Assembly: GCA_030595125.1 (NCBI GenBank)
Contig: JAUVDV010000045.1
Location: 1-46,565, forward strand
Length of the DNA stretch: 46,565 nucleotides
From: Deltaproteobacteria bacterium
GTDB taxonomy: Bacteria > Myxococcota_A > Polyangia > JAAYKL01
Reading direction: 5' to 3'
Shown here: in pieces, positions 7,426 to 46,004 of the stretch
Numbering within the stretch: position 1 is the stretch's first letter
Layout of the letters: each line of letters opens with the position of its first letter
Program-made: the position numbers and the translations under genes
The notes under the pieces: generated by a model
Seen by the model: only the letters and a program-made list of their open reading frames with translations
Databases searched by the model: none
What the model was told of the DNA's origin: nothing

Positions 7426-8262
7426 ATGCTTGATGTGGGGCAGGAAAGCGAGACTGAGTTACCCCCACCAACTATGAACAATATAAGAGACAAAGTTGAC
7501 CACATCGTGTTTGATGATTGGTTTCAATTTCAACACGAGTCAGCAGTAAATCACTTTCGTAATGCTGGATTGTCTGGATACTTTCAATTACGGGCGGGTA
7601 CGGGCAATATGTTTATTGACGCCAGCTCATCTCAGCTTCTTAATGCGGCAAAGATTGCTGCCTTCGGCCCACATGGAAACACGTTGACACCTGTATTCGA
7701 TGGCAAGGAGTTCGAACCTTTTTTAATAGATAGCGGAATATCTTCAAAAACAATTTTTGGAACGGAATTTTGTTCACTTTGGTCTTTGCGGAACAACGGA
7801 GATCTTTTTGCAACACGTCGTTACTGGGAAGATACTACTACATTGAAAAGGGGGAAACCATATTTGTCCCTTGAACACATCGTTATGGGAACTGTCGAAG
7901 CATTGGTTACATTGGTCAGAATATTCACTTTTTTAAGAGATAACCTGAAGAATAATTTTAAGAGTGCGGTGAAAATAGAAATATCCCATTGGGGTATTGT
8001 AGGAAGAGAAATATGTACAACGGATTGGCAAACTAGTTTCGGATTCAGACCTTTTTCACAGGCTCGACGAAAGGACACCACCAAATCTAAGCAATATGAC
8101 TGGACGACTATTGAGCGCAATATAGATGAAATCGTAAAAGAAGTTGGTGACTCAGTTGTCGCGGAATTCAACATTGAATACGACGTTTCAGGGGGCATTT
8201 ACAGTGGAATAGTCCAACGTTTTTTAAAGGACAAACCCAACTGTTGGGCTCTAGCCCCCTGA
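7426..8262 (+). CDS. Unrecognised protein in AT-rich island, possibly 5'-truncated
   Basis: A 278-residue protein without signal peptide or clear membrane segment. It is mixed alpha/beta with a central helical stretch (EHIVMGTVEALVTLVRIFTF) and a Trp-rich C-terminal half. No family is recognised. Base composition is clearly AT-richer than neighbours, and codon use (ATA, AGA, TTT) differs, suggesting transfer. The start is weak: no proper ribosome site precedes ATG 7426. The same frame stays open to a stop at 7357-7359, reading SKDSESFEKAKVYGHTTK through repeat copy A. That leaves three options: a fusion to the repeat, a non-standard start, or a C-terminal fragment of a longer gene. Inverted repeats overlap and follow its stop. 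Confidence 0.65.
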   Translation: MLDVGQESETELPPPTMNNIRDKVDHIVFDDWFQFQHESAVNHFRNAGLSGYFQLRAGTGNMFIDASSSQLLNAAKIAAFGPHGNTLTPVFDGKEFEPFLIDSGISSKTIFGTEFCSLWSLRNNGDLFATRRYWEDTTTLKRGKPYLSLEHIVMGTVEALVTLVRIFTFLRDNLKNNFKSAVKIEISHWGIVGREICTTDWQTSFGFRPFSQARRKDTTKSKQYDWTTIERNIDEIVKEVGDSVVAEFNIEYDVSGGIYSGIVQRFLKDKPNCWALAP

Positions 8263-8280
8263 ACGGCTGTTATTTCAGGG
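8236..8280 (+). terminator. Two inverted repeats at the end of the island's first gene
   Basis: CCCAAC-T-GTTGGG (8236-8248) is followed by CCCTGAA/TTCAGGG arms with a 10-base loop (8257-8280) that includes the stop codon. No T-run follows, so Rho-independent termination is uncertain. Confidence 0.4.
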
Positions 8281-8299
8281 TCAAGATAAAGTTACTCCC

Positions 8300-8350
8300 T
8301 GAAATAAAGACCTGAAATAAAGACTGAAATAAAGACTCCCACTCCTTAGC
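8300..8350 (+). repeat. Triplicate 12-mer and degenerate copy of the island repeat
   Basis: TGAAATAAAGAC occurs three times (8300-8311, 8313-8324, 8325-8336). The third runs into AAAGACTCCCACTCCTTAG, which differs from the island core at only a few positions and looks like a decayed copy. Confidence 0.65.
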
Positions 8351-8354
8351 CCCT

Positions 8355-8470
8355 TGTAAATCTCCCCGGGGGAAGCTCCCAACCATGCGGGGGACGCCTC
8401 GACCCACCCGGGGGGACACCAGAAACCCCGGGGGGGCACAAAATACTCATAATGTGTCTGTCCCCGTAAG
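8355..8470. repeat. GC-run block with three CCC(C)GGGG palindromes
   Basis: Three C-run/G-run palindromes at 8364-8372, 8407-8415 and 8426-8436 lie in a gene-free stretch. They are followed by ATAATGTGTCTGTCCCCG at about 8449-8466. Similar TGTCTG-containing intergenic tags occur near 12165. The block may be a REP-like element; no transposase is present. Confidence 0.45.
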
Positions 8471-8475
8471 GATGG

Positions 8476-8706
8476 TCAATCAAAGGCAAGAACTCCTGCC
8501 CAAATAAAAACTCCTGATATTGACCATAAAAATAGTATTAAAAAAAAGACTGTCCATAGCACCCATCTCAATATGGTTTTTATTTTACCATTGGGAGAAC
8601 CAGTTTTTCTTTTTCTGATAATAAACCGAGAAATAAAAACTGCGGGGAAAAATACGATGCCAAAACACAAGTGATACAGGAAGAGCAAAAAGAAAATTGC
8701 ATTCAT
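8476..8706 (-). CDS. Small hydrophobic membrane protein, unknown
   Basis: A 76-residue AT-rich gene product with two strongly hydrophobic segments (about residues 3-28 and 46-74) separated by a basic loop (RKRKTGSPNGKIK). This predicts a two-pass inner-membrane protein. No family is recognised. It follows the next gene on the same strand by 11 bases. The TAAAGG sequence donated by repeat copy B lies about 10 bases upstream of its ATG and may be its ribosome site. A small two-pass protein in a transferred island could be a holin-, toxin- or immunity-like protein, but the sequence does not say which. Confidence 0.55.
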   Translation of the reverse strand: MNAIFFLLFLYHLCFGIVFFPAVFISRFIIRKRKTGSPNGKIKTILRWVLWTVFFLILFLWSISGVFIWAGVLAFD

Positions 8707-8716
8707 TGATTGTACC

Positions 8717-8743
8717 TTTAGACGGACTCAGAGTCTTTAGATT
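8717..8743 (-). repeat. Island repeat, copy B (inverted orientation)
   Basis: On the minus strand it reads CTAAAGACTCTGAGTCC, then GTCTAAAGG. It encodes the last residues (SKDSESV) and the stop codon of the 9128-8718 gene. It abuts a perfect hairpin GATTGGGG/CCCCAATC with a 5-base loop at 8740-8760. Confidence 0.88.
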
Positions 8744-9128
8744 GGGGTACTTCCCCAATCGTTTGCTTCAAATTCTTGCCTTCGCACTCCACAAGACACT
8801 CATACACCAACGGAAAAATGGTCTCGTCTGACTTCGGGATGTTCTTCTTTCCTTCCCACAAATTCCAGTGACCATATTCAGACATAATGACCGGCTGGAT
8901 GTAGTCCAGTCCGGAATCATCACCGGGCGAACAGAAACCGAACATGGTTGTCCCGTCTGTAAGGGTAAACTGGGTCAGTGCAATGTGAACAGTGTTGCCG
9001 TCGGTTTCCGGTATGGAGTCAAGCGTGGTGGCGCGAACCTGCTCTTCACCACCTTGCTCTCGCCATTCCCACACAGGCGTCGCCTTTAGGTCGGCCACCG
9101 TAAGTTCGTCAACTGAACGCCAATCCAT
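8718..9128 (-). CDS. Small acidic protein of unknown function, C terminus encoded by the island repeat
   Basis: A 136-residue soluble acidic protein beginning MDWRSVDELTVADLK, with Trp-rich and Gly-Asp segments (PVWEW, FCSPGDDSG, YGHWNLWEG). The size, acidity and fold-like pattern resemble small cytoplasmic immunity-type or domain-of-unknown-function proteins, but no family is recognised. The last seven residues (SKDSESV) and the stop come from repeat copy B, so the coding region was probably extended or closed by insertion of that element. A perfect 8-bp hairpin lies just before this tail. Upstream, repeat copy C starts only about 15 bases before the ATG, leaving little room for a native promoter or ribosome site. 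Confidence 0.65.
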   Translation of the reverse strand: MDWRSVDELTVADLKATPVWEWREQGGEEQVRATTLDSIPETDGNTVHIALTQFTLTDGTTMFGFCSPGDDSGLDYIQPVIMSEYGHWNLWEGKKNIPKSDETIFPLVYECLVECEGKNLKQTIGEVPQSKDSESV

Positions 9129-9142
9129 AGTAATCTTCCCCC

Positions 9143-9181
9143 CGATCTAAAGACCGATCTAAAGACTCCGAGTCCTTCGAA
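9143..9181 (+). repeat. Island repeat, copy C with a duplicated half
   Basis: CGATCTAAAGAC (9143-9154) is tandemly repeated at 9155-9166, where it continues into the full element ending in CCTTCGAA at 9181. On the minus strand the element supplies the stop codon of the 10319-9159 gene. Confidence 0.92.
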
Positions 9182-10319
9182 GAGGGCTGTATTTATTAGA
9201 CGATATTCTGTCGCAGAAATATTCTAAACCCAGCAACGGTTTTGCAATTACTAACCGATTTGTGTTCTGGTGTTCAGGAATAACTGCCGAATGAACCGCC
9301 TTTTCGTCAAGGTATACAAGCACCCAAAGCGGATTGCTGTTGTACCATTCTGCTGCTTTCTCCGTAACTTTGTCCCATGCGGATTTCGCGTCATCGTCAA
9401 GATGGAATACGATTCTGTCTTTTTGTTGAACTACTCTAACAAAATTATCAGCAACCAGAACAGGTGTGCTAGAAGAGTAGATTTCTTTGTTGTCAAATAT
9501 GACTTTCCGCGAAAAAGATATCTCCTTTTCTGTTCTCGCCAAAATGAACTGAAGACCTTGTTTGATGTCCTGTCCATGACAGCACGGACTCTCGTACTTG
9601 ATACGAAGTGATTCGAAAGAAGTTTTGCAATATCGTGCCTCTGAATCGAGCTCGGCACACTTTCTATAAAGGTCAATCACCTCAATATTCAAACCATCTC
9701 TGAGGAGCAATAGCGAGGCCAAATTGCCATATATCCGTCCAATGTTGGGGATTTCTTCAACCGCATTTCGAGCAAGAGTAATTCCGCGCAACTCGCATTT
9801 CTCGCAAACCAATGAGCGTCTACTACATTTTTCTTCTAGGAAGTAGAGGCGCGATGATGTGTCAATCTGCGACTCATAATCTGCAACTGATTTCTTTGCG
9901 ACAACTTCGATGAGTTGAGCGTATGAATGAACGGAATCTACCAATTTCGTATCGTACAGATTGTCTTTGATATCGAGAGAAGCGATTAATATAAAGTGTT
10001 CGATGAAGGTCGTTAAGTTCGCCTTTGTTTCGCCATCAAGTACCTTTGCTAGGGATGATAACGCCGATATCGAATCGTCAACAGCGGACGGAATTCTGCG
10101 ATGATTGAACAGAACACCCTCGAATGCATCCATCCCTTCCCTCAATATTTGCAGTTGTTCAGTGCTCAGGTTCACGACATCAGATCGTGTTTGTCCCCCT
10201 ATTTCTTTTTCTGATCCAAGGGGGCTCTTTTCATTACCGCAACAATGATGTGATAGGCATATCAGCAGAAATAGCGTCCTAGTTATTTTCGGTAAAAAGC
10301 GGCACAACCTGAAGCTCAA
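9159..10319 (-). CDS. Putative lipoprotein with helical-repeat region and SecDF-P1-head-like C-terminal domain
   Basis: About 386 residues. The N terminus (KITRTLFLLICLSHHCCGNE) looks like a lipoprotein signal, though the lipobox is poor. The middle is helical, with a TPR-like block (NLASLLLLRDG through LDSEARYC). The C-terminal ~110 residues (PVLVADNFVRVV, then IVFHLDDDAKSAWDKVTEK, then LWVLVYLDEKAVHSAVIP) resemble the SecD P1 head subdomain, which also occurs in stand-alone lipoproteins. This similarity is by eye. The frame is open to 10400, but that part is antisense repeat copy D. I prefer a TTG start at 10319 or 10307, as no ATG lies close to the signal peptide. The final LRRTRSL and stop come from copy C. 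AT-rich and probably acquired. Confidence 0.6.
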   Translation of the reverse strand: MSFRLCRFLPKITRTLFLLICLSHHCCGNEKSPLGSEKEIGGQTRSDVVNLSTEQLQILREGMDAFEGVLFNHRRIPSAVDDSISALSSLAKVLDGETKANLTTFIEHFILIASLDIKDNLYDTKLVDSVHSYAQLIEVVAKKSVADYESQIDTSSRLYFLEEKCSRRSLVCEKCELRGITLARNAVEEIPNIGRIYGNLASLLLLRDGLNIEVIDLYRKCAELDSEARYCKTSFESLRIKYESPCCHGQDIKQGLQFILARTEKEISFSRKVIFDNKEIYSSSTPVLVADNFVRVVQQKDRIVFHLDDDAKSAWDKVTEKAAEWYNSNPLWVLVYLDEKAVHSAVIPEHQNTNRLVIAKPLLGLEYFCDRISSNKYSPLRRTRSL

Positions 10320-10337
10320 AAAGTTGTGAGTCGAACC

Positions 10338-10364
10338 CGATCTAAAGACTCTGAATCCTTCGAA
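10338..10364 (+). repeat. Island repeat, copy D
   Basis: CGATCTAAAGACTCTGAATC followed by CTTCGAA. It has two substitutions relative to copies A and C and keeps their orientation. It marks the right edge of the AT-rich island; GC-rich coding sequence resumes about 100 bases further on. Confidence 0.9.
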
Positions 10365-10466
10365 AGCCACTCCCAGCAGAAGATATTTGATTCCGATCAT
10401 CCCGGCCCGCCTCCATCTATGGGGGCGATGATAACATCTTTGGACGATGTTTGTCGTTTGACCTTT

Positions 10467-12092
10467 TTAGATCCCCACAGACCTGGCAAGATCTATCGAA
10501 ATTTGCGTCTGTCCGTCGTCGGTGACGCTTATGACTTTGCGTTGAGTGATGTCGGGTACGAATGCCTGGATTTCGAGTGTACAGACAGGCAGGTCTTCTA
10601 TGTAAAAGCGGCCGTCCTTTACGGAGACTTTCTTTCTTATCCTGGGCGCGTGCAAGATCTGGCCGCGTGCAGTCATTCCGGACGCATCATCAATGCATGT
10701 TATGGCCTCAAATGAAAACGATCCGTCGTCAATCCCGGTCACGGTGCCTCTGACATCTCCGATACCACTCAGGACCAGTTCGTTCTCGGTGGACGGCGAG
10801 GCGATCACCTTGAATGAAACACCCTCCCCCGGCACGTAGGCGCTGATGTGATATTTGCCCGGAGGCATGGAGAATACAGCCCACTCCCCCCTGGAATCCG
10901 TTCGCTCCTGTTGCCCAAATCCGTACGGACCCAGTGGGCGAATATCCACAAAACCGCCGGCGATCGGTTCCCCGTCAACCGACAGCAGTATTCCCTCCAT
11001 GTCGGGCTCTACAACCGGAATCACGAACTCCACATCTTCGATCAAACCTCCTTCCTCACAATCAAGGAAAAGCGGCTCGCTCGGTGGAGATTTCCACGGC
11101 CACGCCTTGAGGCCGAATGTCCCCTCCCCCGCGTAGTCAAACACGAACCGCCCATCTTCGAAATTTCCCACCGGATAATACGTACCCAACACCCCGCCCG
11201 CCAGGCTCAATTCCAGAGCCCCGTCGTCAGCCGGATCTCCATGGGAATCTACAACCCGCCCGGTTATCCTGCATCCCCGGACCAGCGTCAGATCCACTTC
11301 CCTTTCCACCTCTGCCACAACGAGAACTGCCTCTCTGTTTCCACCCCGCAATCCCGCATACTCCGGATGGTAGACGTCCAGATTCACGTAGCCCACCAGC
11401 GCTTCCAGCGTGAAACTCCCATCTCTTGCGGTAACTGCACAATCGGCGCCGGAGACCAGACGAACCGAATGTGAACCTGTCCCGGGATCCCACGAAACAA
11501 CAGAAGCCCCGGAGACGGGATCACCGTTCGCGTCAATCACTCTGCCGGTAATCGTCCCTGTCCTTTTGAGCATGAAGTCAATCCCCTCCACGCTCGTAAG
11601 GGCACTGACAACGGGCGCCATCTCCACAAACGGTCTTCCGGAACTCACCTTGCGTCTCCCTCCGCTGTGACGAACGAAGTGCTCAATACCGGGAGTGCTG
11701 TAACTCTGCGCCCGTGCGTATGATCCGTACACACCCCGGGGGAGTGATATGGAATAGCCACCGGAGGAATCGGTCGACGCGCTCCGGCTTATCGCGCCAT
11801 CAATGAAGAAAACACGGGCTTCCGATATGGGCGCGCCCCGTGAATCGGAAACATTGCCGGACACACGAACCGTGGGCACCTTGACCCTGGACATTGCGCG
11901 GGCCATCGCCGCAAACCCGAGCCTCTGGATCCTTGAACGAGCGTCTCTTTTGGCCTGTATCCGGGGCTGTGAAGTGTCTGCGATCTCCTCTTCGTCAAAA
12001 TCGATCAGAGTGAGCGCTGTTACGACCGCCGCGACCAATCCCCAAAAAATCCACACCCACTTGGCCCAGCTCCTTCGTCCCGTTCGAATCAT
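10467..12092 (-). CDS. Membrane-anchored carboxypeptidase-regulatory-like repeat protein
   Basis: A 541-residue protein. Residues 12-31 form a single N-terminal membrane anchor (WVWIFWGLVAAVVTAL), and the rest is predicted outside the cytoplasm. It carries several CarboxypepD_reg/Cna-B-like beta-sandwich units, recognisable by the pattern V-x-G-x-V-x-D-x-x-G-x-P: SGNVSDSRGAPISEARV near residue 78, TGRVIDANGDPVSGASV near 182 and TGRVVDSHGDPADDGAL near 276. A later unit starts near MEGILLSVDGEPIAGG. Such units act as structural or carbohydrate-binding modules. No catalytic domain is attached. The metzincin lipoprotein gene lies 108 bases upstream on the same strand. Confidence 0.85.
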   Translation of the reverse strand: MIRTGRRSWAKWVWIFWGLVAAVVTALTLIDFDEEEIADTSQPRIQAKRDARSRIQRLGFAAMARAMSRVKVPTVRVSGNVSDSRGAPISEARVFFIDGAISRSASTDSSGGYSISLPRGVYGSYARAQSYSTPGIEHFVRHSGGRRKVSSGRPFVEMAPVVSALTSVEGIDFMLKRTGTITGRVIDANGDPVSGASVVSWDPGTGSHSVRLVSGADCAVTARDGSFTLEALVGYVNLDVYHPEYAGLRGGNREAVLVVAEVEREVDLTLVRGCRITGRVVDSHGDPADDGALELSLAGGVLGTYYPVGNFEDGRFVFDYAGEGTFGLKAWPWKSPPSEPLFLDCEEGGLIEDVEFVIPVVEPDMEGILLSVDGEPIAGGFVDIRPLGPYGFGQQERTDSRGEWAVFSMPPGKYHISAYVPGEGVSFKVIASPSTENELVLSGIGDVRGTVTGIDDGSFSFEAITCIDDASGMTARGQILHAPRIRKKVSVKDGRFYIEDLPVCTLEIQAFVPDITQRKVISVTDDGQTQISIDLARSVGI

Positions 12093-12200
12093 ATTGCGCC
12101 ACCCTTTCCCTTACATTGGGACAACGCACCCGAGTCAAAGTTCCATCCGGGAAATACTCAATAATAATGTGTCTGACACCCTCGAAATGAGGCGGGAAAG

Positions 12201-13703
12201 CTAGATTTTCACCATTTCGTGACCGGCCAGTTTTGCGAAGGCGGCGTGCTCGCCGGGATCCGGGAAGATCAGCAACCCTCCACCCAGGTGACCGTAAGGG
12301 TTGAAGTACGCTTCGACCACGTCGATGAGTTCCCCGGTCGAGTTGTAGATCTCGATCTCCTCGGTCGGATCCGTGGGCATCCTCCTCATGCGGAGATCCG
12401 GACCGCGATCCACTGCCCCGTCGAAGAAGACGGCAATCGATATCCAGTTCTCCTGGAAATCCGACGGAAGGATCATGTCCATCTCGGTTTGCCCGTTGAC
12501 GATCGTTATCCTCTCGTACAGCGCCCCGTAGGTGTAGTCGCTCACCCACGTCGGATCGGCGTAGCCCATGAAATCGTACTCGCTGGCCGGATTCTTGAGT
12601 ACGTCGCTCACCAGGTCGTAACCCCACACGCCGATGAAGCCGCCGGAATAGGGATAGGCTGGATCAACACCCTGGGCTCCTCCGCTGGGCGCGTGCTCCC
12701 GCCCGTGGGCATGGCCTACCTCGTGGATCATTGTGGCAGCGGACGACTGCCCGGGGAATCCTATGCCGATGCTCCCGCGCAAAGACGAATCATACGGGGA
12801 CGTCACAAGGTTGCTCAGGCCCACCACGCATCCCGTCGGGCAAAACTCGCCGAACGAATCGGCGGGCGTGACGATCCCGTAGTAGTACTCCTCAGGAGCG
12901 GCTCCCCATTGTCCCCGCAGGTTGGTGATGGCGTTGAGCAACTCGCCCCACCCCCCACCATTGGCACTGACACCTCCACTCCATGCGAAGGGTTCCGTAA
13001 CCGTAAATTCGATATCGTGGACCGGGTACTGAGTGAAAAACTCGTTGTAATAGAATTCGAGCTGGGCGTCGCTCGTGTCCGGCAGTCTGCCGGAGCCGTC
13101 CGCGTTGTATTGAACGGGGATAAGGACAATCCTGAGCGGATCTCCGATTTCCACGGCATTCAGATCGAACGCCTCGCCGTTCGCAGGCCACTGGTCCTCG
13201 TCGACGGCGCCGCCTGCGCTCACGCTCTCTTCGGCTTCTCTGATGGAGATATTTATTGAGAGGTTGTCTGTAATGAGGTCACCCGGGATCTCCACGTTGA
13301 GAGTGCTGGTCAAAGTTGCGATGTCGGAATTGAAATCGACTACATGAAGCTCCTCGATCGGGCACGGATCGTTGCCGAGCTGATTGGCGTCGTACAGGTC
13401 CACCCGCACGTAGACGGATCGGTTGACCCACTCGGTCTGTCTCTGGACGTGCACCCGCAGTAACGCGTCCTTGCCGGCGATCACCTCGACGCCGCCCGTG
13501 GTCACATCCTCGCCGTTCTCCATCAACTGAATGCGAACACCCTGATAGATGTCCACATTGGTGATGGCAATACCCCCGGCCAGGTCATAGGAAAGAATGC
13601 TGCAGCCCTCACCCTCCTTGAAGCTGCGATCATCCTTGCAACCAAGGGTCACGCAGAACGCGGAAAACAGGACAATCGACAACAGGATCTCTCGAAATTT
13701 CAA
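12201..13703 (-). CDS. Metzincin-type zinc metalloprotease lipoprotein
   Basis: A 500-residue predicted lipoprotein with lipobox VTLGC (Cys22) and a strong GAGGAGG ribosome site. Residues 327-337 read HEVGHAHGREH, the full HExxHxxGxxH metzincin zinc site. YDFMGY at 376-381 fits the methionine turn that follows it in this clan. The region before the zinc site (residues ~40-250) is beta-rich and includes VRVHVQRQTEWVNRSVYVRVDL, as in the accessory domains of M66-like and related secreted proteases. Role: extracellular proteolysis, anchored to the outer membrane; the substrate is unknown. The ~45 residues after the Met-turn, ending GGGLLIFPDPGEHAAF, may form a small C-terminal domain. All expected catalytic residues are present. 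Confidence 0.88.
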   Translation of the reverse strand: MKFREILLSIVLFSAFCVTLGCKDDRSFKEGEGCSILSYDLAGGIAITNVDIYQGVRIQLMENGEDVTTGGVEVIAGKDALLRVHVQRQTEWVNRSVYVRVDLYDANQLGNDPCPIEELHVVDFNSDIATLTSTLNVEIPGDLITDNLSINISIREAEESVSAGGAVDEDQWPANGEAFDLNAVEIGDPLRIVLIPVQYNADGSGRLPDTSDAQLEFYYNEFFTQYPVHDIEFTVTEPFAWSGGVSANGGGWGELLNAITNLRGQWGAAPEEYYYGIVTPADSFGEFCPTGCVVGLSNLVTSPYDSSLRGSIGIGFPGQSSAATMIHEVGHAHGREHAPSGGAQGVDPAYPYSGGFIGVWGYDLVSDVLKNPASEYDFMGYADPTWVSDYTYGALYERITIVNGQTEMDMILPSDFQENWISIAVFFDGAVDRGPDLRMRRMPTDPTEEIEIYNSTGELIDVVEAYFNPYGHLGGGLLIFPDPGEHAAFAKLAGHEMVKI

Positions 13704-13742
13704 TGCGTGCCTCCTCGTGTCCCCCGATCAACTGTCGCAAAA

Positions 13743-13767
13743 ATACACCTGTACATTGTACGTGTAT
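13743..13767. other. Imperfect inverted repeat between lipoprotein genes
   Basis: ATACAC...GTGTAT arms enclose GTACA/TGTAC with a 2-base bulge. It lies between the end of the 14203-13805 gene and the start of the metalloprotease gene, so it could be an operator or an attenuating hairpin. Confidence 0.35.
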
Positions 13768-13804
13768 TCCGGAGTCCAATCAGCAGAAAAAAAGTTAGAA
13801 GAAA

Positions 13805-14203
13805 TTATGGAGAAGAGATGTCCGTCATTGCCTTGGCGCGCATCTCGGGGGTGCCGCCGGTGATCTGGACGATAGTGGACCCGAAGAGCCTGCACGCGTT
13901 GGGGTCGTTCCCCTTCATGGCATCGTAGGCCGCCTGGGCGAACATGGGGTTGTACTCCATGATCATGATGGTCATCGTCTTGGGCGGAGCGGTCATGAGA
14001 GTGGTGGTGGTGGCGTTGCCCGCCGCGACCACGTTGGGCTGCATCATCCACTGCCAGCCACCGGCCTGTAGCTTGGCCGTGGCCGCCGCTCCGGTCATGC
14101 TTCCTGCGGCCGCAGCTGCTCCCGGATCGCCGCCGCCGAAGGGGTTGCAGGCCGCGAGGCCAACGCATATCGCGATGATGGAAAGCACACGGATAGATGT
14201 CAT
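13805..14203 (-). CDS. Small Ala/Thr/Met-rich lipoprotein
   Basis: A 132-residue predicted lipoprotein with lipobox GLAAC (Cys19) and a very strong ribosome site (AAGGAGGACAG). After a Gly/Ala-rich linker come ~90 residues rich in Thr and Met (TTTTLMTAPPKTMTIMIMEYNPMF) and a helical C-terminal part with a single cysteine (CRLFGS). No family is recognised. It sits directly downstream of the sulfur/electron-transfer operon (61 bases) on the same strand, so it might be part of that transcript. Its own strong ribosome site suggests high expression. Confidence 0.75.
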   Translation of the reverse strand: MTSIRVLSIIAICVGLAACNPFGGGDPGAAAAAGSMTGAAATAKLQAGGWQWMMQPNVVAAGNATTTTLMTAPPKTMTIMIMEYNPMFAQAAYDAMKGNDPNACRLFGSTIVQITGGTPEMRAKAMTDISSP

Positions 14204-14264
14204 CTCTGTCCTCCTTGGTATTGGTTGGGTTATTTATAAATCGGGGCAAAATATACGTTATCAG

Positions 14265-15515
14265 TCATTCACTGACAAGGGCGTTGGCGAGTAGCTCCGA
14301 GAGGAACTCCACTTTCACTCCAACGTCGTAATGCTCGTTGAGATCCGACAGCTGGGTGTGGCAGTTCTCGCAGGCGGTGCAGAGCACCTTCGCCTCGGTG
14401 GCCTTCACCTGATCGATCTTCACGCGTGACGACTTCATCCTGAAGTCCTTCTCCCCCATGGCCACCAGGCCGCCGCCGCCGCCGCAGCACCAGTTCTCCT
14501 CCCGAGTTGGGGTCATCTCGACGAAATCGTCAGTCAGTTGCTCGAGCAGGTAGCGCGGCTCGTCGTAGATACCGCCGTTGCGAGCCATCTGGCACGGGTC
14601 GTGGTAGGTGACACGGCCCTCGATCTTCGACTTGTCCAGCTTTATGCGGCCCTCTTTTACATACCGTGCGAACAACTCCACGACGCTGACTACTTTGAAC
14701 GGATGTTCGCCGGTCATGTACTTCATCACGCGGTAGGCGGTGCCGCATTCGCAGATGGCAACCTCCTTGACGTTGAGCCGGGTGGCCTCGTCGATGATCC
14801 GGCGCGCGATGACCTTTGTCTTGGCAGGATCGCCGGCAAAGGCGCCGAAGTTGACCGCCTCGAAGTAGCTCAGGCTCCACTTTTCCTTCGCCGCGTTCAT
14901 TACGGCTGCCGCCGGGATGATGGAGTGCTTGCCCGCGAGAGCAACGTACAGCACGTTGGCGCCCTGGACACCGAGAGGGATTGCTTCTTCTCCCGCCTCG
15001 CTCTTCCACATCTCGATGACCTCCGCTTCCAGGTTCCTGACGCCCTGCGCGAAGTTTTCCTTTGTGTCCTCGATGGTCTCGGCCTTGGCGATGGACATGT
15101 CCGCAAGCATGTTGAGCACCACGGGTGTCATCTCTGCGGTGTTGGCCAGGTGCTTGGCAATTCCCTGGATCTGCTGGGTGTCGATGCCGAACGGACAGAC
15201 GGTCATACAGCGCCGGCAACCGGTGCACGAGTAGGCCGCGTCCAGGACCTGCTGCATCCACTCGTCGGTGAACTCAACCGCCTCGTTCATGCCCGGAGCG
15301 ATCTTGCCCGACAACCTGAAGTACTTGTCGAAAAGCCGCCGCACCACCTGGGCACGCCCCACCGGGGTGTACCTGGTCTCCGGCATGGACTGGTAGACGT
15401 GGCAAGAGTCGATGCACGTTCCGCAACGGGTACAGCCGTCCATATAGAGCCTTACGGCGTTGGTGAGTTTCTCCGAAAAGGCGTCCAGAAGTTCCTGTTT
15501 CTTCCTGTCGTCCAT
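14265..15515 (-). CDS. HdrD/TmcB/DsrK-like iron-sulfur electron-transfer protein
   Basis: A 416-residue soluble protein with two ferredoxin-type clusters: C28-C31-C34-C38 (CTRCGTCIDSC) and C97-C100-C103-C107 (CTGCRRCMTVCP). It then has two CCG-type domains. The second is complete (HDPC at 308, CC at 343-344, C382 and C385), as in subunits that bind the non-cubane cluster of heterodisulfide reductase. The first is degenerate (C255-x-C257). This arrangement is shared by HdrD, DsrK, HmcF and TmcB, which pass electrons between a membrane b-type cytochrome and thiol/disulfide chemistry. The start is supported by GGAGGGT 7 bases upstream. Only 2 bases separate it from the NarI-like gene, its predicted membrane partner. 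Confidence 0.92.
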   Translation of the reverse strand: MDDRKKQELLDAFSEKLTNAVRLYMDGCTRCGTCIDSCHVYQSMPETRYTPVGRAQVVRRLFDKYFRLSGKIAPGMNEAVEFTDEWMQQVLDAAYSCTGCRRCMTVCPFGIDTQQIQGIAKHLANTAEMTPVVLNMLADMSIAKAETIEDTKENFAQGVRNLEAEVIEMWKSEAGEEAIPLGVQGANVLYVALAGKHSIIPAAAVMNAAKEKWSLSYFEAVNFGAFAGDPAKTKVIARRIIDEATRLNVKEVAICECGTAYRVMKYMTGEHPFKVVSVVELFARYVKEGRIKLDKSKIEGRVTYHDPCQMARNGGIYDEPRYLLEQLTDDFVEMTPTREENWCCGGGGGLVAMGEKDFRMKSSRVKIDQVKATEAKVLCTACENCHTQLSDLNEHYDVGVKVEFLSELLANALVSE

Positions 15516-15517
15516 AT

Positions 15518-16231
15518 CTAGACCCTCCGAAACCGGTTGAGCGCCACTGTGAAGAAGGCGTGCATGATCTTGGAGAAGGGCAGCACCATCATGAACAGGT
15601 TGGCGAGGAAGATGTGGATGGCCACCACCACGTAATGGGAGCCGTAGAGAGTATCCGCCGGATCCTCGAAGGTGAAGTGCAGCAACCCGTCCAGGTAGGC
15701 TCCGAAGTCCTGCTTGGTGATAACGAACCCGTCCGCGCTCCAGGAGTTGCCCCAGCTGATGGTGTCACCGGTTATTACCGTGAGGAACAGCAGAAACAGC
15801 AGCAGGTAGTCCGCCGGCACGGAGACCTCGCGGACCGGACTGGCGAAACGACGCAACAGGAAATAGGTGACGGAGATGGTCACGGCCGCCCCCACCGCGC
15901 CCCAGCCGAGCATGTGCGGTGAGTCTTTCGGCATGAGCGATATCTGGGGCAGCAGATCCAGATGCGAGAGGATCAGGGCCCCGAAGCCTAAGTGAAAGAG
16001 CATCAGGAATACCCAGAACAGGGGCTTGTTCTTTCGCACGGTGGGCATGGTGAAGCTCTCCCAGAGGGCCACGAGAGGCGCGGCCTTGCGCTGCGGAAAG
16101 ATCTTGAGGGTGTGGGGATGAGCGGGCGCCCGCAGCACCATGACAATGCGCGCGATGACACCCAATACAAGCCACGCCACGGCCAGGTAAACCATCGGCA
16201 CCGTGATCACATAGAGAATCTTGTCCACCAT
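15518..16231 (-). CDS. NarI/DsrM/TmcC-like dihaem cytochrome b membrane subunit
   Basis: A 237-residue protein with about six hydrophobic segments. Four histidines reproduce the NarI haem b ligand spacing: H80 and H90 (10 apart), then H206 and H224 (18 apart), in contexts LFHLGFGALILSHLD and AIHIFLANLFMMVLPFSKIMH. Family members (NarI, DsrM, HdrE, TmcC) exchange electrons between menaquinone and a partner iron-sulfur subunit. The partner here is the next gene, 2 bases away. The pair could therefore reduce or oxidise quinone in exchange with a sulfur-based substrate. The gene follows tusA by 18 bases. Assignment to the nitrate reductase gamma fold is firm; the actual substrate is unknown and no nitrate reductase alpha/beta subunits are present. 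Confidence 0.93.
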   Translation of the reverse strand: MVDKILYVITVPMVYLAVAWLVLGVIARIVMVLRAPAHPHTLKIFPQRKAAPLVALWESFTMPTVRKNKPLFWVFLMLFHLGFGALILSHLDLLPQISLMPKDSPHMLGWGAVGAAVTISVTYFLLRRFASPVREVSVPADYLLLFLLFLTVITGDTISWGNSWSADGFVITKQDFGAYLDGLLHFTFEDPADTLYGSHYVVVAIHIFLANLFMMVLPFSKIMHAFFTVALNRFRRV

Positions 16232-16249
16232 GAAAGATTGTCTTTCGTT

Positions 16250-16486
16250 TTATTTGAGACGTTTTACATAGATCTTGATGGGTTCGCCCTGAACGGTCTC
16301 CAGAACTTCATTGCCGGTGGACTTGGCCCACGCCGGAAAGTCGGAAATGGAACCGGGATCGGTGGTCAGAACCTCGATGATCTGCCCCACTGTCACCGAG
16401 CCGATCTCCTGGCTAATCTTCACCACCGGCATCGGGCAAGGCAGCCCCTTCAGGTCCAGTACCTTCGCGACATCATGATTGCTCAT
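16250..16486 (-). CDS. tusA: TusA-family sulfur carrier
   Basis: A 78-residue protein with the TusA core DLKGLPCPMPVVK. Cys17 in the CPxP motif is the residue that carries persulfide sulfur. I chose the ATG at 16486, giving a normal TusA length, because GGAG lies 7 bases upstream; the longer open frame is spurious overlap with the preceding gene. In sulfur-oxidising and dissimilatory systems TusA exchanges sulfane sulfur with DsrE-type proteins and delivers it to Dsr or sHdr enzymes. The DsrE2-like gene 17 bases upstream and the Hdr-like genes downstream put it in that kind of pathway rather than in tRNA thiolation. Confidence 0.95.
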   Translation of the reverse strand: MSNHDVAKVLDLKGLPCPMPVVKISQEIGSVTVGQIIEVLTTDPGSISDFPAWAKSTGNEVLETVQGEPIKIYVKRLK

Positions 16487-16503
16487 CTCACTTCTCCTTC
16501 TTT

Positions 16504-17055
16504 TCAGGAAATTATCATCTGTATGCTGGACTCCTGAGCCTCGGCCAGGAAGGTGGCGACACCGCAGAAGTCCATGTTCGGGTAATCGATCAACTCCTCG
16601 CGCTTGAAGCCCATGAGGCCCATGGACATCTCGCACACCTTTATCTCAACGCCCGTCATCTGTGCGATCTCGAACAGCTGGTCCAGGCTGGGAGCGTTCT
16701 TTTTCTTCATCAGGCCCTTGAGCATGGAGGTGCCCATGCCCGCCATGTGCATCTGGGAGAGCTTGGTCTTGTTGCGGCCCTTGGGCAGCATCCAGCCAAA
16801 CATTTTAGACATGAAGTCCTTGCCTCCGACCTTCTTCTTGGGGTCGCGCAACGCTGCCGTGCCCCAGAAGGTAAAGAACTGAACTACTTTCATCCCCATG
16901 GCGGCGGCGCCTGTCGCGATAATCATTGCGGCCAGGAGCTTATCCAGATCGCCTGAGAGCACGATCATGGAAAGTTTGTTTTCCTTGCCCGCGGGCATGG
17001 CGTCCACCCTGGCCTTGAGTTCGGCCAGTTGGGTTTCGACATCAGCGCTCATCAT
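16504..17055 (-). CDS. DsrE2-like sulfurtransferase
   Basis: A 183-residue protein of the DsrE/DsrF/DrsH-like family, closest by pattern to DsrE2. Matching features are a hydrophobic ATGAAAMGMKVVQFFTF segment, a Met/Lys-rich middle (MHMAGMGTSMLKGLMKKK) and the reactive cysteine block VEIKVCEMSMGLMGF with Cys141, followed by FCGVATFLAEA with Cys164. DsrE-type cysteines hold persulfide and trade it with TusA, which is the next gene. Two adjacent ATGs (17055, 17052) both fit the AGGAGAA ribosome site. The gene lies 33 bases after the ArsR-type regulator. The pairing of regulator, DsrE2-like and TusA proteins mirrors the sulfane-sulfur branch of sHdr gene clusters. Confidence 0.9.
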   Translation of the reverse strand: MMSADVETQLAELKARVDAMPAGKENKLSMIVLSGDLDKLLAAMIIATGAAAMGMKVVQFFTFWGTAALRDPKKKVGGKDFMSKMFGWMLPKGRNKTKLSQMHMAGMGTSMLKGLMKKKNAPSLDQLFEIAQMTGVEIKVCEMSMGLMGFKREELIDYPNMDFCGVATFLAEAQESSIQMIIS

Positions 17056-17088: not shown

Positions 17089-17409
17089 CTATTTTCTCTT
17101 ACAGCTCGACACACACTTGATGAGATCGTTCATCCTCGGCTCTGCCAGGGTGTAACGGGAGATCCCGTCCTCCCGATACGTCTCGACGAGACCGCTCATC
17201 CTCAGAATACGTAGTTGCTGGGATACCAGCGCCTGCTTGGTGTCCATCTTTCGCGCCATGTCGGAAACGCGCTCGTTCGACTGGCAAAGAAGATCGATGA
17301 TTCGCAACCTCAACGGATGCGCCACCGCCTTCAACACATCGGCAATCTGCTCGGCGTTTTCGCCGTTGACCCTGGTCTTGCCGCTTCCTTTTTTCTTCAT
17401 TCGTGACAT
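17089..17409 (-). CDS. ArsR-family repressor with SqrR/BigR/sHdrR-like cysteines
   Basis: A 106-residue winged-helix repressor: helix-turn-helix around residues 46-75 (VSDMARKMDTKQALVSQQLRILRMSGLV) and the wing TYREDGISRYTL. It lacks the ELCVCDL metal box of ArsR/SmtB. It has Cys42 in helix 2 (IDLLCQS) and Cys99/Cys103 at the C terminus (CVSSC). A helix-2 cysteine paired with a C-terminal one is the redox pair of persulfide sensors such as SqrR and BigR. I infer sulfane-sulfur sensing, supported by the DsrE2-like and TusA genes directly downstream. A regulatory inverted repeat lies 20 bases upstream of its ATG. The start is uncertain between 17409 and 17400; neither has a clear ribosome site. 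Confidence 0.88.
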   Translation of the reverse strand: MSRMKKKGSGKTRVNGENAEQIADVLKAVAHPLRLRIIDLLCQSNERVSDMARKMDTKQALVSQQLRILRMSGLVETYREDGISRYTLAEPRMNDLIKCVSSCKRK

Positions 17410-17421
17410 CTTGAGAATAGT

Positions 17422-17444
17422 ATTATCACTATATCGGGATATAG
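17422..17444 (-). promoter_or_regulatory. Probable promoter and ArsR operator
   Basis: A perfect inverted repeat CTATAT-CGGG-ATATAG (17429-17444) lies just upstream of a GATAAT -10-like hexamer (17422-17427, minus strand). The placement suits repression of the regulator operon by its own product. The same intergenic region serves the divergent multihaem cytochrome gene. Confidence 0.6.
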
Positions 17445-17551
17445 CAAGGTAAAATTAACATAAAGTTTATCGACTTTGGCTTTTTCTTCGTGCGAAAACG
17501 TCTAGAGCACGTCTTGACTAGACTTTCCTTATTACTTCGCAGATAAATAAA

Positions 17552-17580
17552 TCTGGCACCTGATACATGAGTCTGGCACC
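17552..17580 (+). repeat. Direct repeat TCTGGCACC upstream of the cytochrome gene
   Basis: TCTGGCACC occurs at 17552-17560 and 17572-17580. A related CTGGCACC occurs near 35099. It could be a regulator half-site pair or a dispersed intergenic tag. Confidence 0.4.
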
Positions 17581-17610
17581 ACGTACTCGAGCACGATCTG
17601 GAGGTGATTT

Positions 17611-20325
17611 ATGGGTCGCTGCCCATTGGCAATAGCACTATCCGCAGGAATAGCTGGCTTGTTTCTCGGTTGCAACGAAGACCCCGGCGGGGGATCCGAC
17701 ACACCGGACGCGTCGACCAACGAAACACCGGACGCGGCACCCGATGATTGTGTTGCGGGCACTCTCCTCCCCTGTACTTGCCCCGACGGTGAAACGGGTT
17801 ATGCCGAATGCGTGGACGACAGCTGGGCCGAATGCGATTGCGAAGAGGGTGAGTTTCCAATGTTCTGCGGATTGTGCCACGGGGATTGGGACTATCCCGC
17901 TCCACCCAAAGATATCTCTGGAAATACGGAGACCAGCATTGTCACCGTGGGCGCCCACCGGGCCCACCTGATGGAGAGCGACTGGCACCGGCGGGTGGAG
18001 TGCGTGGACTGCCACGCGGTTCCCAAAAAAATGAATTCCCCGGGTCACATTGATCCTTCACCGGCGGAGCTCACCTTCGCAAAAGTCTCCATCGCTGACG
18101 GGGCGTCACCGCTATTCGATCGCACCATTGCCACCTGCGCTGGAACCTACTGTCACGGTTCTACGCTGACAGGGTTCGCCTCCGGGGATCCGGTATGGAC
18201 CGACGATGACGGATCCCCCGGAGAGTGCGGCTCTTGCCACAGCCTGCCACCGGGTGGAAGTCATCCCACAGACACAGAGTGTGAAAACTGCCACGGCAAC
18301 GTAGTCGCCGCTGGAAACGAGATCATCGCATCGAATCTTCATGTGGATGGGATCGTGCAGTTCTCCGGAGATGGGTTGAGCTGCAATACCTGCCATGGCG
18401 GCGCCCAAAACGCGGCGCCTCCGGTTGACACTTCCGGTAATACCGATCCCACGATTCCCACCGTGGGGGCTCATCAATCCCATCTGGGCACGAGCACCTG
18501 GCACCGGGAAGTGCAGTGCGATGACTGTCACGAAGTTCCCCAATCAATGGATGATTGTCACAACGACGGCCCACCCGCAGAGCACGTCTGGAGCGCGCTA
18601 TCGAGCGCCGACGGAGCCAACCCGTCATACGACTCGTCCACCACAACTTGCATCAACACCTATTGTCACGGCGCCACCCTGGCGGCCGGCGGAGAAAATC
18701 CGGATCCCCAGTGGAACGTGGTGGCGAGCGGGGAGGTTGTGTGCGGCGATTGCCACAGCATCCCACCCTGCACAGGTCACCCGGGATCGGGGCCGTGCGC
18801 CCCATGCCACGATCAGGTGTACGACGGCACCGACTGGGTTAACCCGCAGCTGCACATCGACGGCGTGATTCAAGTCATCGATGACCTGCCCTGCGGGGCC
18901 TGCCACGGGATGCCCCCGGCGGCGCCTCACAACGGATTCACCGACTGCGCACTGTGCCACGGCATGGTCTGGGACGGCACGGATTGGGTTGACGAATCCC
19001 TCCACGACAACGGCGTTGTGGATGTCTCGGGGTCATGCAATGTCTGTCACGGCAACCCCCCTACCCTCGCGAATCAGGATTTCCCGGGCGGCGGCGGAGC
19101 TCACGTGAAGCATGTGACCGACCTGGGCATGACGTGCAACATCTGCCACGGGCATAACGGCAGCGGCTCTACTCATGCACCCCTGGGTTCAGCCACCATT
19201 GATCAAGTCAACGTGGATATCGCATTTGATCTGAGCGTTTCATATCCCGGCGGCACAACCATGGACAACGGGCTGACCACGTCCTTCAGCCACAACGGAG
19301 GAAACCCCACTTGCAACGTGGGATGCCACAACCCGGTAGTGGGCGATGCGGCCTCTCTGGGGAATCAGGCCACATGGACCGATACAGAGATCACCTGCAT
19401 TGATTGCCACGACCAGACCGGCCTGAACCTGCCGATCAACCACCCGGTGAACGGCACCGACGCGCAGATCAGAGCCAATTGCTCCGAGTGTCATGATCAT
19501 TCCAACCACACGACAGGCACAATCGCATTCGCGGATCCGGACCCGAGCGACGGAATCGATCCCTCGACTACCTCGGTTGCAACCGACCTGTGCAAGACGT
19601 GTCACGATGGAGGATCTTCAACCTATTTCGGTGGCGCGACTGCGATTGATATGAGCGACTCGTGGATCGCTCCCCGTGCCCACGAAGATAACGCGGTGGG
19701 ATGCACAAGCTGTCACGGTCATCACGGGAACAGCTCGGGCGCCACCCTGACAGCAGACCCCGAGGAGAGCGGCTGCGCGAGTTGTCATCCAACTGTGGTG
19801 GCAGAGATGGCAGCGGGCGGATCCTTTACGCATCATCACGTGGACGATTCTGACCCACTGCATACTCCGGCAGAGCTGGAGTGCACAAGATGCCACAATC
19901 CTCATGTGGTCGACGATTCTCCCTGGCAACCGGTGATCAACCCGGACAACGGCAGCTTGATATCAGTAGCTGATGTTCCGAGCGATCATTTCTCCACCGC
20001 CGGAAGCGACACATCTGTTTTCTGCCTGACCTGTCACGACGGAACTCAGCCCGCCGCCGGAGACATCGCGGCAGAGCTGGCGAGCGCCTGGACCATCAAC
20101 TCCCAGTTCTTCAGAGGCGGCGCCTCCGACAGGAACATGCACATTTCCCACGTTTCAACCCAGGGATTCGCCTGTACGGAGTGTCACAACGCTCACAGCA
20201 ACACTGGCACATCGGGACTCAATCGCGGCCACCTGCTCTACAACTACATCACCGTCAACACCTTCCCGTATACAGGCAAGAACTCCTGCGGATTGTCAGG
20301 CGGCCCCACCGACTGTCATCATTAA
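17611..20325 (+). CDS. Large multihaem c-type cytochrome lipoprotein
   Basis: A 904-residue predicted lipoprotein with lipobox LFLGC (Cys21) and a near-perfect ribosome site GGAGGTGAT at 17600-17608. By direct count it has 20 CxxCH haem motifs, from CGLCH at residue 86 to CTECH near 855. It also has two CxxxxCH (CAGTYCH, CINTYCH), one CxxxCH (CNVGCH) and a terminal Cx8CH. The CxxxxCH...CxxCHSxPP blocks match the Geobacter-type repeated motif. Many extra histidines can serve as distal ligands. Such proteins sit on the outer membrane and conduct electrons to extracellular acceptors. It is divergent from the sulfur-handling operon and shares its control region; its stop overlaps that of the convergent glycosyltransferase gene by 4 bases. 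Haem number and location are inferred. Confidence 0.95.
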   Translation: MGRCPLAIALSAGIAGLFLGCNEDPGGGSDTPDASTNETPDAAPDDCVAGTLLPCTCPDGETGYAECVDDSWAECDCEEGEFPMFCGLCHGDWDYPAPPKDISGNTETSIVTVGAHRAHLMESDWHRRVECVDCHAVPKKMNSPGHIDPSPAELTFAKVSIADGASPLFDRTIATCAGTYCHGSTLTGFASGDPVWTDDDGSPGECGSCHSLPPGGSHPTDTECENCHGNVVAAGNEIIASNLHVDGIVQFSGDGLSCNTCHGGAQNAAPPVDTSGNTDPTIPTVGAHQSHLGTSTWHREVQCDDCHEVPQSMDDCHNDGPPAEHVWSALSSADGANPSYDSSTTTCINTYCHGATLAAGGENPDPQWNVVASGEVVCGDCHSIPPCTGHPGSGPCAPCHDQVYDGTDWVNPQLHIDGVIQVIDDLPCGACHGMPPAAPHNGFTDCALCHGMVWDGTDWVDESLHDNGVVDVSGSCNVCHGNPPTLANQDFPGGGGAHVKHVTDLGMTCNICHGHNGSGSTHAPLGSATIDQVNVDIAFDLSVSYPGGTTMDNGLTTSFSHNGGNPTCNVGCHNPVVGDAASLGNQATWTDTEITCIDCHDQTGLNLPINHPVNGTDAQIRANCSECHDHSNHTTGTIAFADPDPSDGIDPSTTSVATDLCKTCHDGGSSTYFGGATAIDMSDSWIAPRAHEDNAVGCTSCHGHHGNSSGATLTADPEESGCASCHPTVVAEMAAGGSFTHHHVDDSDPLHTPAELECTRCHNPHVVDDSPWQPVINPDNGSLISVADVPSDHFSTAGSDTSVFCLTCHDGTQPAAGDIAAELASAWTINSQFFRGGASDRNMHISHVSTQGFACTECHNAHSNTGTSGLNRGHLLYNYITVNTFPYTGKNSCGLSGGPTDCHH

Positions 20326-44160: not shown

Positions 44161-44814
44161 CTAACGCCGCCTTCTCTCTATTTCCTTCTCCAACCACTTC
44201 TCATAGACTCCAAAGTACTCCGGTAGCTTCGTTGAGTTGCGCTGCGCATTCAGTTTTTTCTCGAGTTTCCGAGCCGACCAGCTTTTCTTTCCCAGTTTAC
44301 TGCGCATGGAATCCAGAAAACTATCCAACGCCGCTTTTCGATTCCTCACCAGAATTCCAGAATTGAGATTGAGCCTGTCGTTGATATCGCTCTGGAACGG
44401 TTCTTCCTCACGACCGTAAACAAGCTTTCCGTTTGGTAAATATCTCAGTTTCTCGATATGAGACTTCCTCTGCGGATCGATCGTAATCAGATCATCGGAT
44501 TTTCTCGTATCGCAAGTCTGTTGAGTACGCTTCATCCCCCTGGACTTGTCGCAGGCCGCCAGGAGATTGCTCCAGTCCAGTTGTCTCTCCGGCGCTCCAC
44601 TCGGACCCCTCCGAGGACGATAGTGCTCTGCTTTCATTTCGGAAATATCGATGGAACGCATGCAGTAGCAGCAAAGGTATCCCTGATCTTTCAGCAACAG
44701 CTCTCTTACTTTGTCTTTCTCGGGAAACCCATCCCAGGAAGCTTCGTCGCCACCTGACTCTCTATATTCAAGCAGCTTCCGGGGCTCTGGTTGACTCTTC
44801 TCTACGTACCGCAT
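44161..44814 (-). CDS. HNH endonuclease of Septu-like (PtuB) defence pair
   Basis: A 217-residue protein of the TIGR02646-type HNH family often found with ATPases in Septu and retron-associated systems. It has C48-C49-C51 (LCCYCM), His64 in AEHYRPRRG, Asn83 in WSNLLAAC, Cys88 and Cys101, giving the metal-bound HNH-type site. A long basic C terminus (SARKLEKKLNAQRN, then KWLEKEIERRRR) could bind nucleic acid. Its ATG overlaps the stop of the ATPase gene by one base (TGATG), as expected for a two-gene defence operon. No reverse transcriptase is present, so the retron type is unsupported. The predicted role is nuclease effector in an anti-phage system. Confidence 0.85.
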   Translation of the reverse strand: MRYVEKSQPEPRKLLEYRESGGDEASWDGFPEKDKVRELLLKDQGYLCCYCMRSIDISEMKAEHYRPRRGPSGAPERQLDWSNLLAACDKSRGMKRTQQTCDTRKSDDLITIDPQRKSHIEKLRYLPNGKLVYGREEEPFQSDINDRLNLNSGILVRNRKAALDSFLDSMRSKLGKKSWSARKLEKKLNAQRNSTKLPEYFGVYEKWLEKEIERRRR

Positions 44815-46004
44815 CAGTCGCCGAACATCTCGATCATCGTTGTATAACGAACCACCTCCGCATCATCGTCACCCAACTTGGAGCGGATCTCATCGAGCTT
44901 CCGTCGGGCCTGATCGTGCTTGGCCTCGTCAATAAGCACCGCAAGCTCGTGCAGCTCCTTTTCCATTTCCTTCGCGCGAAGCGGCTGATCGAATATCTCG
45001 GTCAGTATGGAATTTGGATCTCTTCCCCAGGTAGGAGGCAACTTCTCTACCAACTTGAAATCCTCGATCAGCCGTATGCATTCGGAATCGATGTAGCTCA
45101 ATACAATAGGCGAGTGGGTAGTAACTACGAACTGGAGGTTGGGAAAAGTATGGGTTAGCGCGGGTATGATGTTTCTTTGCCACTCGGGATGGAGGTGTAG
45201 ATCGATCTCATCGATCAGAACTACGCCTTCCCCGTCCAGAGGATTCGACCCGGGATTGGCAAGCGATAACCTTCGGGCGATATCACATCCAAGAGCGGCC
45301 AGCGTGCGCTCTCCTTCGCTGAGCTGATTGAAAGACAGCACCTGCCCATTCTTTTTGGCAGTCAAAACCGGCGTCGGTTGTCGTTTGATTCGAGGATTCG
45401 AGTACCCGGGCAACAACAACTCCAGTGACTTTCTGACGGCCTCAAGTTGAACATCGATATGCTCCGGATTGTCGCGCAGGCCTTCGTTTTCCAGATCCTC
45501 ACGATCTCGAAACCACTCAAAAAACTCGCCGAATGTAGTCTTGGGCTGATGAAGTGATTCAATCCACGCGCTGGATGCTCGCCAGTGTCTTGGATTCTTT
45601 GCCCCGGGCGTCGCATCGTTCGCATGCCTTGAAACGGGATAGTAAACCAAGAGAGGTAGAGGACCCTTCGCTTGTTGGTCACTCGAAAACACCAAAGTTT
45701 GATTGATGGCGCCCGGGTATTCCTTTCCTTCTTTGAACCCATGATGAAGAATCACCTCTTCGTCTCCGGAGACTCCTCGCAATTCAATTTCAAAAAAAGC
45801 AGCACCGTTGCGTTGGTCTTCGTCGACAAAGCTCAATCCAGTCCCGTGAGGGGTTATCCTCTTCACCTCCTTGGCTATGGCATCCAATATGGAAGTCTTG
45901 CCGCTTCCGTTCACTCCGACGATAACCGTCACCTTCGGATGGAAACTCAGGCTAAGGGACTCGAACCCCCTGAAATTCTGCAACTCAAGGCTCGTCAACC
46001 TCAT
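44814..46004 (-). CDS. AAA/ABC-type ATPase of Septu-like (PtuA) defence pair
   Basis: A 396-residue ATPase of the RecF/OLD-like ABC class. Walker A GVNGSGKTS at residues 30-38, signature NQLSEGER at 226-233, Walker B VVLIDEID at 261-268 with LHLHPEWQ following, and the H-loop TTHSP at 295-299. In Septu, PtuA forms an oligomer that licenses PtuB nuclease activity. AAAGGAGT 8 bases before the ATG supports the start. It overlaps the HNH gene. The C-terminal ~80 residues (LRAKEMEKELHELAVLIDEAKHDQARRKL) are predicted coiled coil. Other two-gene AAA-HNH systems are possible. Confidence 0.85.
   Translation of the reverse strand: MRLTSLELQNFRGFESLSLSFHPKVTVIVGVNGSGKTSILDAIAKEVKRITPHGTGLSFVDEDQRNGAAFFEIELRGVSGDEEVILHHGFKEGKEYPGAINQTLVFSSDQQAKGPLPLLVYYPVSRHANDATPGAKNPRHWRASSAWIESLHQPKTTFGEFFEWFRDREDLENEGLRDNPEHIDVQLEAVRKSLELLLPGYSNPRIKRQPTPVLTAKKNGQVLSFNQLSEGERTLAALGCDIARRLSLANPGSNPLDGEGVVLIDEIDLHLHPEWQRNIIPALTHTFPNLQFVVTTHSPIVLSYIDSECIRLIEDFKLVEKLPPTWGRDPNSILTEIFDQPLRAKEMEKELHELAVLIDEAKHDQARRKLDEIRSKLGDDDAEVVRYTTMIEMFGD

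Follow-up and report, generated by a model that had tools for sequence, protein, structure and literature searches.

A many-haem lipoprotein-type cytochrome gene divergent from an ArsR-led sulfur-type operon in an uncultured deltaproteobacterium

Genes and features of the locus

The stretch of DNA analyzed here (the window; 46,565 nucleotides) belongs to a deltaproteobacterial genome assembly of 5.39 Mb in 203 contigs that is 95% complete. It encodes a multihaem c-type cytochrome whose gene is divergent from, and 201 bp away from, an ArsR/SmtB-type regulator, which in turn leads a unit of DsrE2-like, TusA, DsrM-like, and DsrK-like genes. The intergenic region between arsR and the cytochrome gene comprises positions 17410–17610. 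The following features are referred to below.

14265–17055, minus strand: DsrE2-like, TusA, DsrM-like cytochrome b, and DsrK-like Fe-S genes; neighbours of the cytochrome gene, assigned by profile matches
17089–17409, minus strand: ArsR/SmtB-type regulator, 106 aa; neighbour outside the cytochrome unit
17429–17444, no strand: palindrome CTATATC-GG-GATATAG with perfect 7-bp arms at −20 to −35 of arsR; candidate ArsR operator
17519–17547, plus strand: weak promoter candidate for the cytochrome gene, TAGACT-17-GATAAA, found by eye, 8 of 12 matches
17532–20318, no strand: stretch missing from the same-genus genome G001, from DNA comparison
17611–20325, plus strand: multihaem c-type cytochrome gene, 904 aa, with 20 CxxCH, one CxxxCH, two CxxxxCH, and one Cx8CH
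17611–17673, plus strand: signal peptide and lipobox-like LFLG/C (Cys21), read by eye
17749–17841, plus strand: small Cys-rich domain, residues 47–77, six Cys and no haem motif; predicted small beta domain
17851–18360, plus strand: first pentahaem module, residues 81–250, from module alignment; CxxCH, CxxCH, CxxxxCH (C176), CxxCH, CxxCH
18367–18876, plus strand: second pentahaem module, residues 253–422, from module alignment; same motif order, CxxxxCH at C347
18892–20325, plus strand: C-terminal part, C7/c3-like, with 12 CxxCH, CxxxCH at C568, and Cx8CH at C893

Elsewhere in the window, a Septu-like defence pair consisting of PtuA (PADLOC, 2.7e-116) and PtuB (7.2e-56) is encoded at 44161–46004 on the minus strand.

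The multihaem cytochrome

A sequence-only reading of this DNA had described a single lipid-anchored chain with at least 20 CxxCH motifs plus CxxxxCH, CxxxCH, and Cx8CH variants, and both the motif counts and the anchor are borne out by the analysis. Shuffled versions of the protein (n = 5000) contained 0.24 CxxCH motifs on average and 3 at most, as compared with the 20 observed, and the other five reading frames hold 0, 0, 2, 1, and 2 such motifs over the whole window. The N-terminus, MGRCPLAIALSAGIAGLFLGC, was read by eye: a short charged segment is followed by a hydrophobic core, and the end resembles a lipobox; as in bacterial lipoproteins, the signal peptide ends in a lipobox with Cys at position +1. 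By the lipobox rule we take it to be a lipoprotein signal, the motif being GLFLGC here and GLLLGC in the related genome G002. An acidic linker connects Cys21 to the six-Cys domain. A loose pattern derived for this domain matched only the window and G002 among the 18 sources scanned. Residues 51–80, with pLDDT values of 68–73, are the only part of the cytochrome that AlphaFold2 modelled with moderate confidence; the model of the whole protein, built from two sequences, has a mean pLDDT of 28.1 and a pTM of 0.20. With regard to a relation to the solved filaments of extracellular cytochrome nanowires (OmcS, OmcE, and OmcZ) or to other structures, a phmmer search of PDB sequences gave 0 matches at E ≤ 0.01.

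The haem-binding part starts with the two tandem pentahaem modules of approximately 170 residues each. The protein contains 25 CH dipeptides in total, and a count of 25 haems was considered and rejected: C316-H317 in the second module is probably an axial ligand rather than a haem site and was not counted, because the module alignment places its His opposite His146 of the first module, which belongs to no motif. Both CX3CH and CX4CH motifs were counted as haem-binding sites in a survey (PMC5566968). By this reckoning the cytochrome is likely to carry 23 haems, or 24 if the terminal Cx8CH, which is kept in G002, binds one as well. Its 38 non-motif His residues are enough to provide distal ligands.

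According to profile searches, the protein is a member of the CxxxxCH/CxxCH c-type cytochromes (TIGR01904 of NCBIfam; 67.4 bits in two stretches, cut-off 27) and also exceeds the Pfam cut-offs of Cytochrome_C7 (81.1 bits, cut-off 24.8), Cytochrom_c3_2, and GSu_C4xC__C2xCH. It is not a DmsE family decahaem cytochrome (TIGR03508), for which it scores 46.4 bits against a cut-off of 192.2. It is a new and rather ordinary member of an already known kind. As in the CxxxxCH/CxxCH cytochromes, which were named from Geobacter and whose two models (TIGR01904 and PF09698) each match the window's gene twice, a CxxxxCH is followed by CxxCH inside the repeated modules; unlike them, the protein has only two CxxxxCH copies and adds a long C7/c3-like C-terminal part as well as the small Cys-rich N-terminal domain. 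No mention of TIGR01904 or GSu_C4xC was found in the literature searched.

Distribution and conservation

Matches at E ≤ 0.001 were found in 23 of 59 genomes, including the source genome. The C-terminal half has a much narrower distribution at E ≤ 1e-40, occurring in 4 of 317 genomes of the class, namely the source genome, G002, G026, and G042. The latter two encode lipoprotein-type cytochromes with 34 CxxCH motifs, likewise as single genes, which share 50–55% identity with the window's protein over approximately residues 427–736 and 45–47% over the pentahaem modules, but differ from it in their length (approximately 1620 aa), their larger number of haem motifs, and their C-terminus. Another genome has a row of very long multihaem frames (G056, contig C106, locus L087; 7579–19378, minus strand), two of them with 30 CxxCH each (1374 and 1441 aa).

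In G002, an 88% identical cytochrome gene occupies the same divergent place and 57 of 58 Cys are kept, the exception being C4. The dN/dS ratio between the two genes is approximately 0.18 (0.09 for residues 1–560 and 0.24 for the rest); the gene is intact and under purifying selection. The C-terminal third (19291–20325) is more divergent from G002 at both silent and coding sites, with a dS of 0.67 vs. 0.31, perhaps as a result of recombination. Between the cytochrome and the glycosyltransferase-2 (GT2) gene, G002 (L068) contains a gene for a 505-aa membrane-protein-like protein (7684–9201, plus strand) that has no Pfam match and is not found in the window. The reading frame described here is confirmed as a real and well-preserved gene of the multihaem lipoprotein type.

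The intergenic region

Scans of the 201-bp region covered promoters, repeats, and palindromes. The palindrome at 17429–17444 lies 20–35 bp upstream of arsR, with 166 bp separating it from the cytochrome gene, a position that would fit autorepression of arsR, and it is kept in G001 and G002 with arms of 6 instead of 7 bp. There is no second perfect copy in the source genome, where two sites with one mismatch were found. A shared operator was rejected, as the palindrome belongs to arsR by its position. No promoter in the region reached 9 of 12 matches. A block at 17514–17531 is conserved in the window, G001, and G002; it could belong to a promoter of the cytochrome gene or act as an element upstream of arsR. 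The region also includes a 20-nt direct repeat (17542–17581) with TCTGGCACC, for which 4 matches at ≤2 mismatches were found in the genome vs. 0 in the control; this is not a clear repeat family, and a dispersed element was rejected.

The sulfur-type operon and its link to the cytochrome

The DsrM-like protein of the divergent unit is a DsrM/TmcC/NarI-like cytochrome b and the DsrK-like protein a DsrK/TmcB/HmcF-like Fe-S protein. No DsrC was detected in the source genome at E ≤ 0.001. The ArsR matches the generic ArsR/SmtB subfamily (64.6 bits, cut-off 55) and stays below the equivalog cut-offs of BigR (55.1 of 155 bits) and TsoR (37.9 of 115 bits). Ten ArsR proteins were compared. A C-terminal CxxxC is present in the window's ArsR and all of its seven nearest relatives, and seven of these eight proteins have a Cys at the LLC position, which is absent in L098; two more distant proteins (L092 and L101) possess neither. 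The DsrE2-TusA-DsrM-like-DsrK-like unit is widespread and sometimes led by a Cys-bearing ArsR; loci L090–L124 come from records under the names Desulfomonile, Desulfarculaceae, Eisenbacteria, and Spirochaetota, among others.

The association of the cytochrome with this unit can be judged from the same-genus genome G001. At the DNA level, the window and G001 are similar from arsR to approximately position 17531 and again from approximately 20319 onward. On one contig, G001 encodes the end of the GT2 gene, ArsR, DsrE2 (98% identity), TusA, and the DsrM-like and DsrK-like proteins, and it has the operator-like palindrome too. The cytochrome gene is absent between GT2 and arsR in this otherwise intact locus, and only weaker paralogues (best 41% identity) were found elsewhere in G001, which is 86% complete. 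When rooted, the tree built from the four operon genes has the topology (window,(G001,G002)), with support values of 90, 95, and 93 for the three data sets used. It suggests that the cytochrome was ancestral in the genus, so that one deletion in G001 would be the simplest account.

These data also bear on whether the cytochrome gene is a mere passenger, laterally mobile or in decay, that plays no important role. Its loss in G001 and the patchy occurrence of its C-terminal half in the class would agree with such a gene, but the open frame, the 88% identity, and the dN/dS of two species argue against it, as does the rooted tree, which places the cytochrome in the genus ancestor; we regard this explanation as extremely improbable.

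For a wider sample, named genomes were scanned with a DsrE2 alignment and the best 80 of 215 relatives' loci were examined. A DsrK-like gene with at least 45% identity lies within 5 kb of DsrE2 in 19 of these 80, hereafter the operon loci. At least 4 kb of upstream DNA was available for 15 of the 19; the four shorter ones are less telling as negatives and include G001, whose contig nevertheless extends as far as the GT2 gene. A frame with at least four CxxCH motifs occurs at a single operon locus, that of G002 (L089), and none was found in the available DNA of the other 18, four of the 19 having less than 4 kb upstream. The only other case among the best 80 of 215 loci, L142 (Acidobacteriaceae), has two multihaem frames and no DsrK reported. 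The 18–19 kb surrounding the 34-CxxCH homologues of G026 and G042 contained no match to the sulfur proteins of the window.

Could ArsR nevertheless govern both divergent units from the 201-bp region, with the cytochrome exporting electrons from the sulfur pathway? The divergent arrangement in both the window and G002 speaks for this, as do the conserved Cys of ArsR (a DNA-proximal one and the C-terminal CxxxC), which fit thiol or persulfide sensing, and the conserved block upstream of the cytochrome. Yet G001 retains ArsR, palindrome, and operon without the cytochrome, almost all operon loci have no multihaem frame in the available DNA, no sulfur genes adjoin the relatives in G026 and G042, and the palindrome is placed at the start of arsR and is the only perfect copy that the genome contains. 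Control of both units by ArsR thus appears quite unlikely. Because a close relative has the operon without the cytochrome, the sulfur neighbourhood looks incidental, and the position of the operon beside the cytochrome is most likely a coincidence; co-regulation of the cytochrome with the ArsR unit in this one organism seems unlikely. The sequence-only reading had taken the control region to be shared with ArsR and had suggested a common sulfur signal. Neither is supported: the palindrome occupies the place of the arsR promoter and persists in the cytochrome-free G001, 18 of 19 operon loci lack a multihaem frame in the available DNA, and the homologues of G026 and G042 are not flanked by sulfur genes. 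What stands of it is a many-haem, lipid-anchored cytochrome that is plausibly involved in extracellular electron transfer and divergent from an ArsR-led sulfur-type unit.

Proposed function

Porin-cytochrome conduits such as MtrABC or OmbB-OmaB-OmcB include an outer-surface lipoprotein cytochrome, which the window's protein resembles. Unlike in these systems, its gene adjoins neither a barrel nor a periplasmic cytochrome gene: the neighbours encode a glycosyltransferase-2-like protein and ArsR, and no other called gene of the window contains two or more CxxCH motifs. Conduit-type genes are found elsewhere in the source genome, however. TIGR01904 matches there 11 times, in five frames distributed over contigs C27, C92, and C153. 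At 9867–16508 (minus strand) on C27 (L082), a barrel-like protein of 542 aa, a protein with 25 CxxCH motifs, and a 1062-aa paralogue of the window's cytochrome (20 CxxCH and seven Cx4CH) are encoded side by side. The 542-aa protein has no domain recognized by Pfam and is barrel-like in sequence, suggesting an outer-membrane barrel. On C92, a barrel-like 558-aa protein adjoins a 13-CxxCH protein. Judging from gene order, the C27 set has the layout of a porin-cytochrome conduit, one that includes a paralogue of the window's protein, and C92 would be a second such set. The cytochrome c assembly family PF01578 has three matches in the genome.

We therefore propose, with a probability of about 70%, that the gene encodes an outer-membrane lipoprotein with approximately 23 covalent haems that is expressed from its own promoter, works with a conduit encoded elsewhere, and has the ArsR unit as an unrelated neighbour. 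The protein would be exported, receive its haems from the cell's cytochrome c assembly genes, and be anchored in the outer membrane by Cys21. Its haem chain could then connect a porin-cytochrome conduit with acceptors or partners outside the cell by carrying electrons between them; C27 or C92 is the presumed conduit, a partner assigned by its presence in the genome. The gene would be an accessory, stand-alone cytochrome gene that is regulated apart from ArsR, the operator serving arsR. Secreted multihaem proteins were reported for Myxococcota genomes (PMC11495043). Against an independent cytochrome stand the persistence of its divergent arrangement with the ArsR unit in two species, those of the window and G002, and the conserved block at 17514–17531.

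Alternatively, the cytochrome might be anchored in the outer membrane but face the periplasm, where it would store electrons or act as a periplasmic wire and not as a surface reductase. The side that the protein faces is not settled by lipid anchoring alone, and no barrel gene was recognized in the 46.6-kb window, as judged from the gene list and from family scans that covered some of the genes. The paralogue on C27, however, is part of a cluster with a barrel and a periplasmic cytochrome and suggests surface exposure for the family, which makes periplasmic orientation unlikely; exposure at the surface is presumed for the proposed outer-membrane lipoprotein as well. One could imagine that the cytochrome and the ArsR unit form a divergent regulon in this genus, with the Cys-bearing ArsR sensing thiols or persulfides and thereby tuning the extracellular disposal of electrons from a DsrC-free oxidation of sulfane sulfur, and with a secondary loss of this outlet in G001, but this is very doubtful. 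Should the sulfur link be true, the sensing of sulfane sulfur would be coupled to extracellular electron transfer.

The natural deletion in the sister genome, by which sulfur operon and cytochrome separate cleanly, illustrates how the neighbourhood alone would mislead. The outer-membrane lipoprotein proposed here would add a stand-alone, surface-type cytochrome with roughly 23 haems to little-studied, uncultured lineages of the deltaproteobacterial or Myxococcota type.
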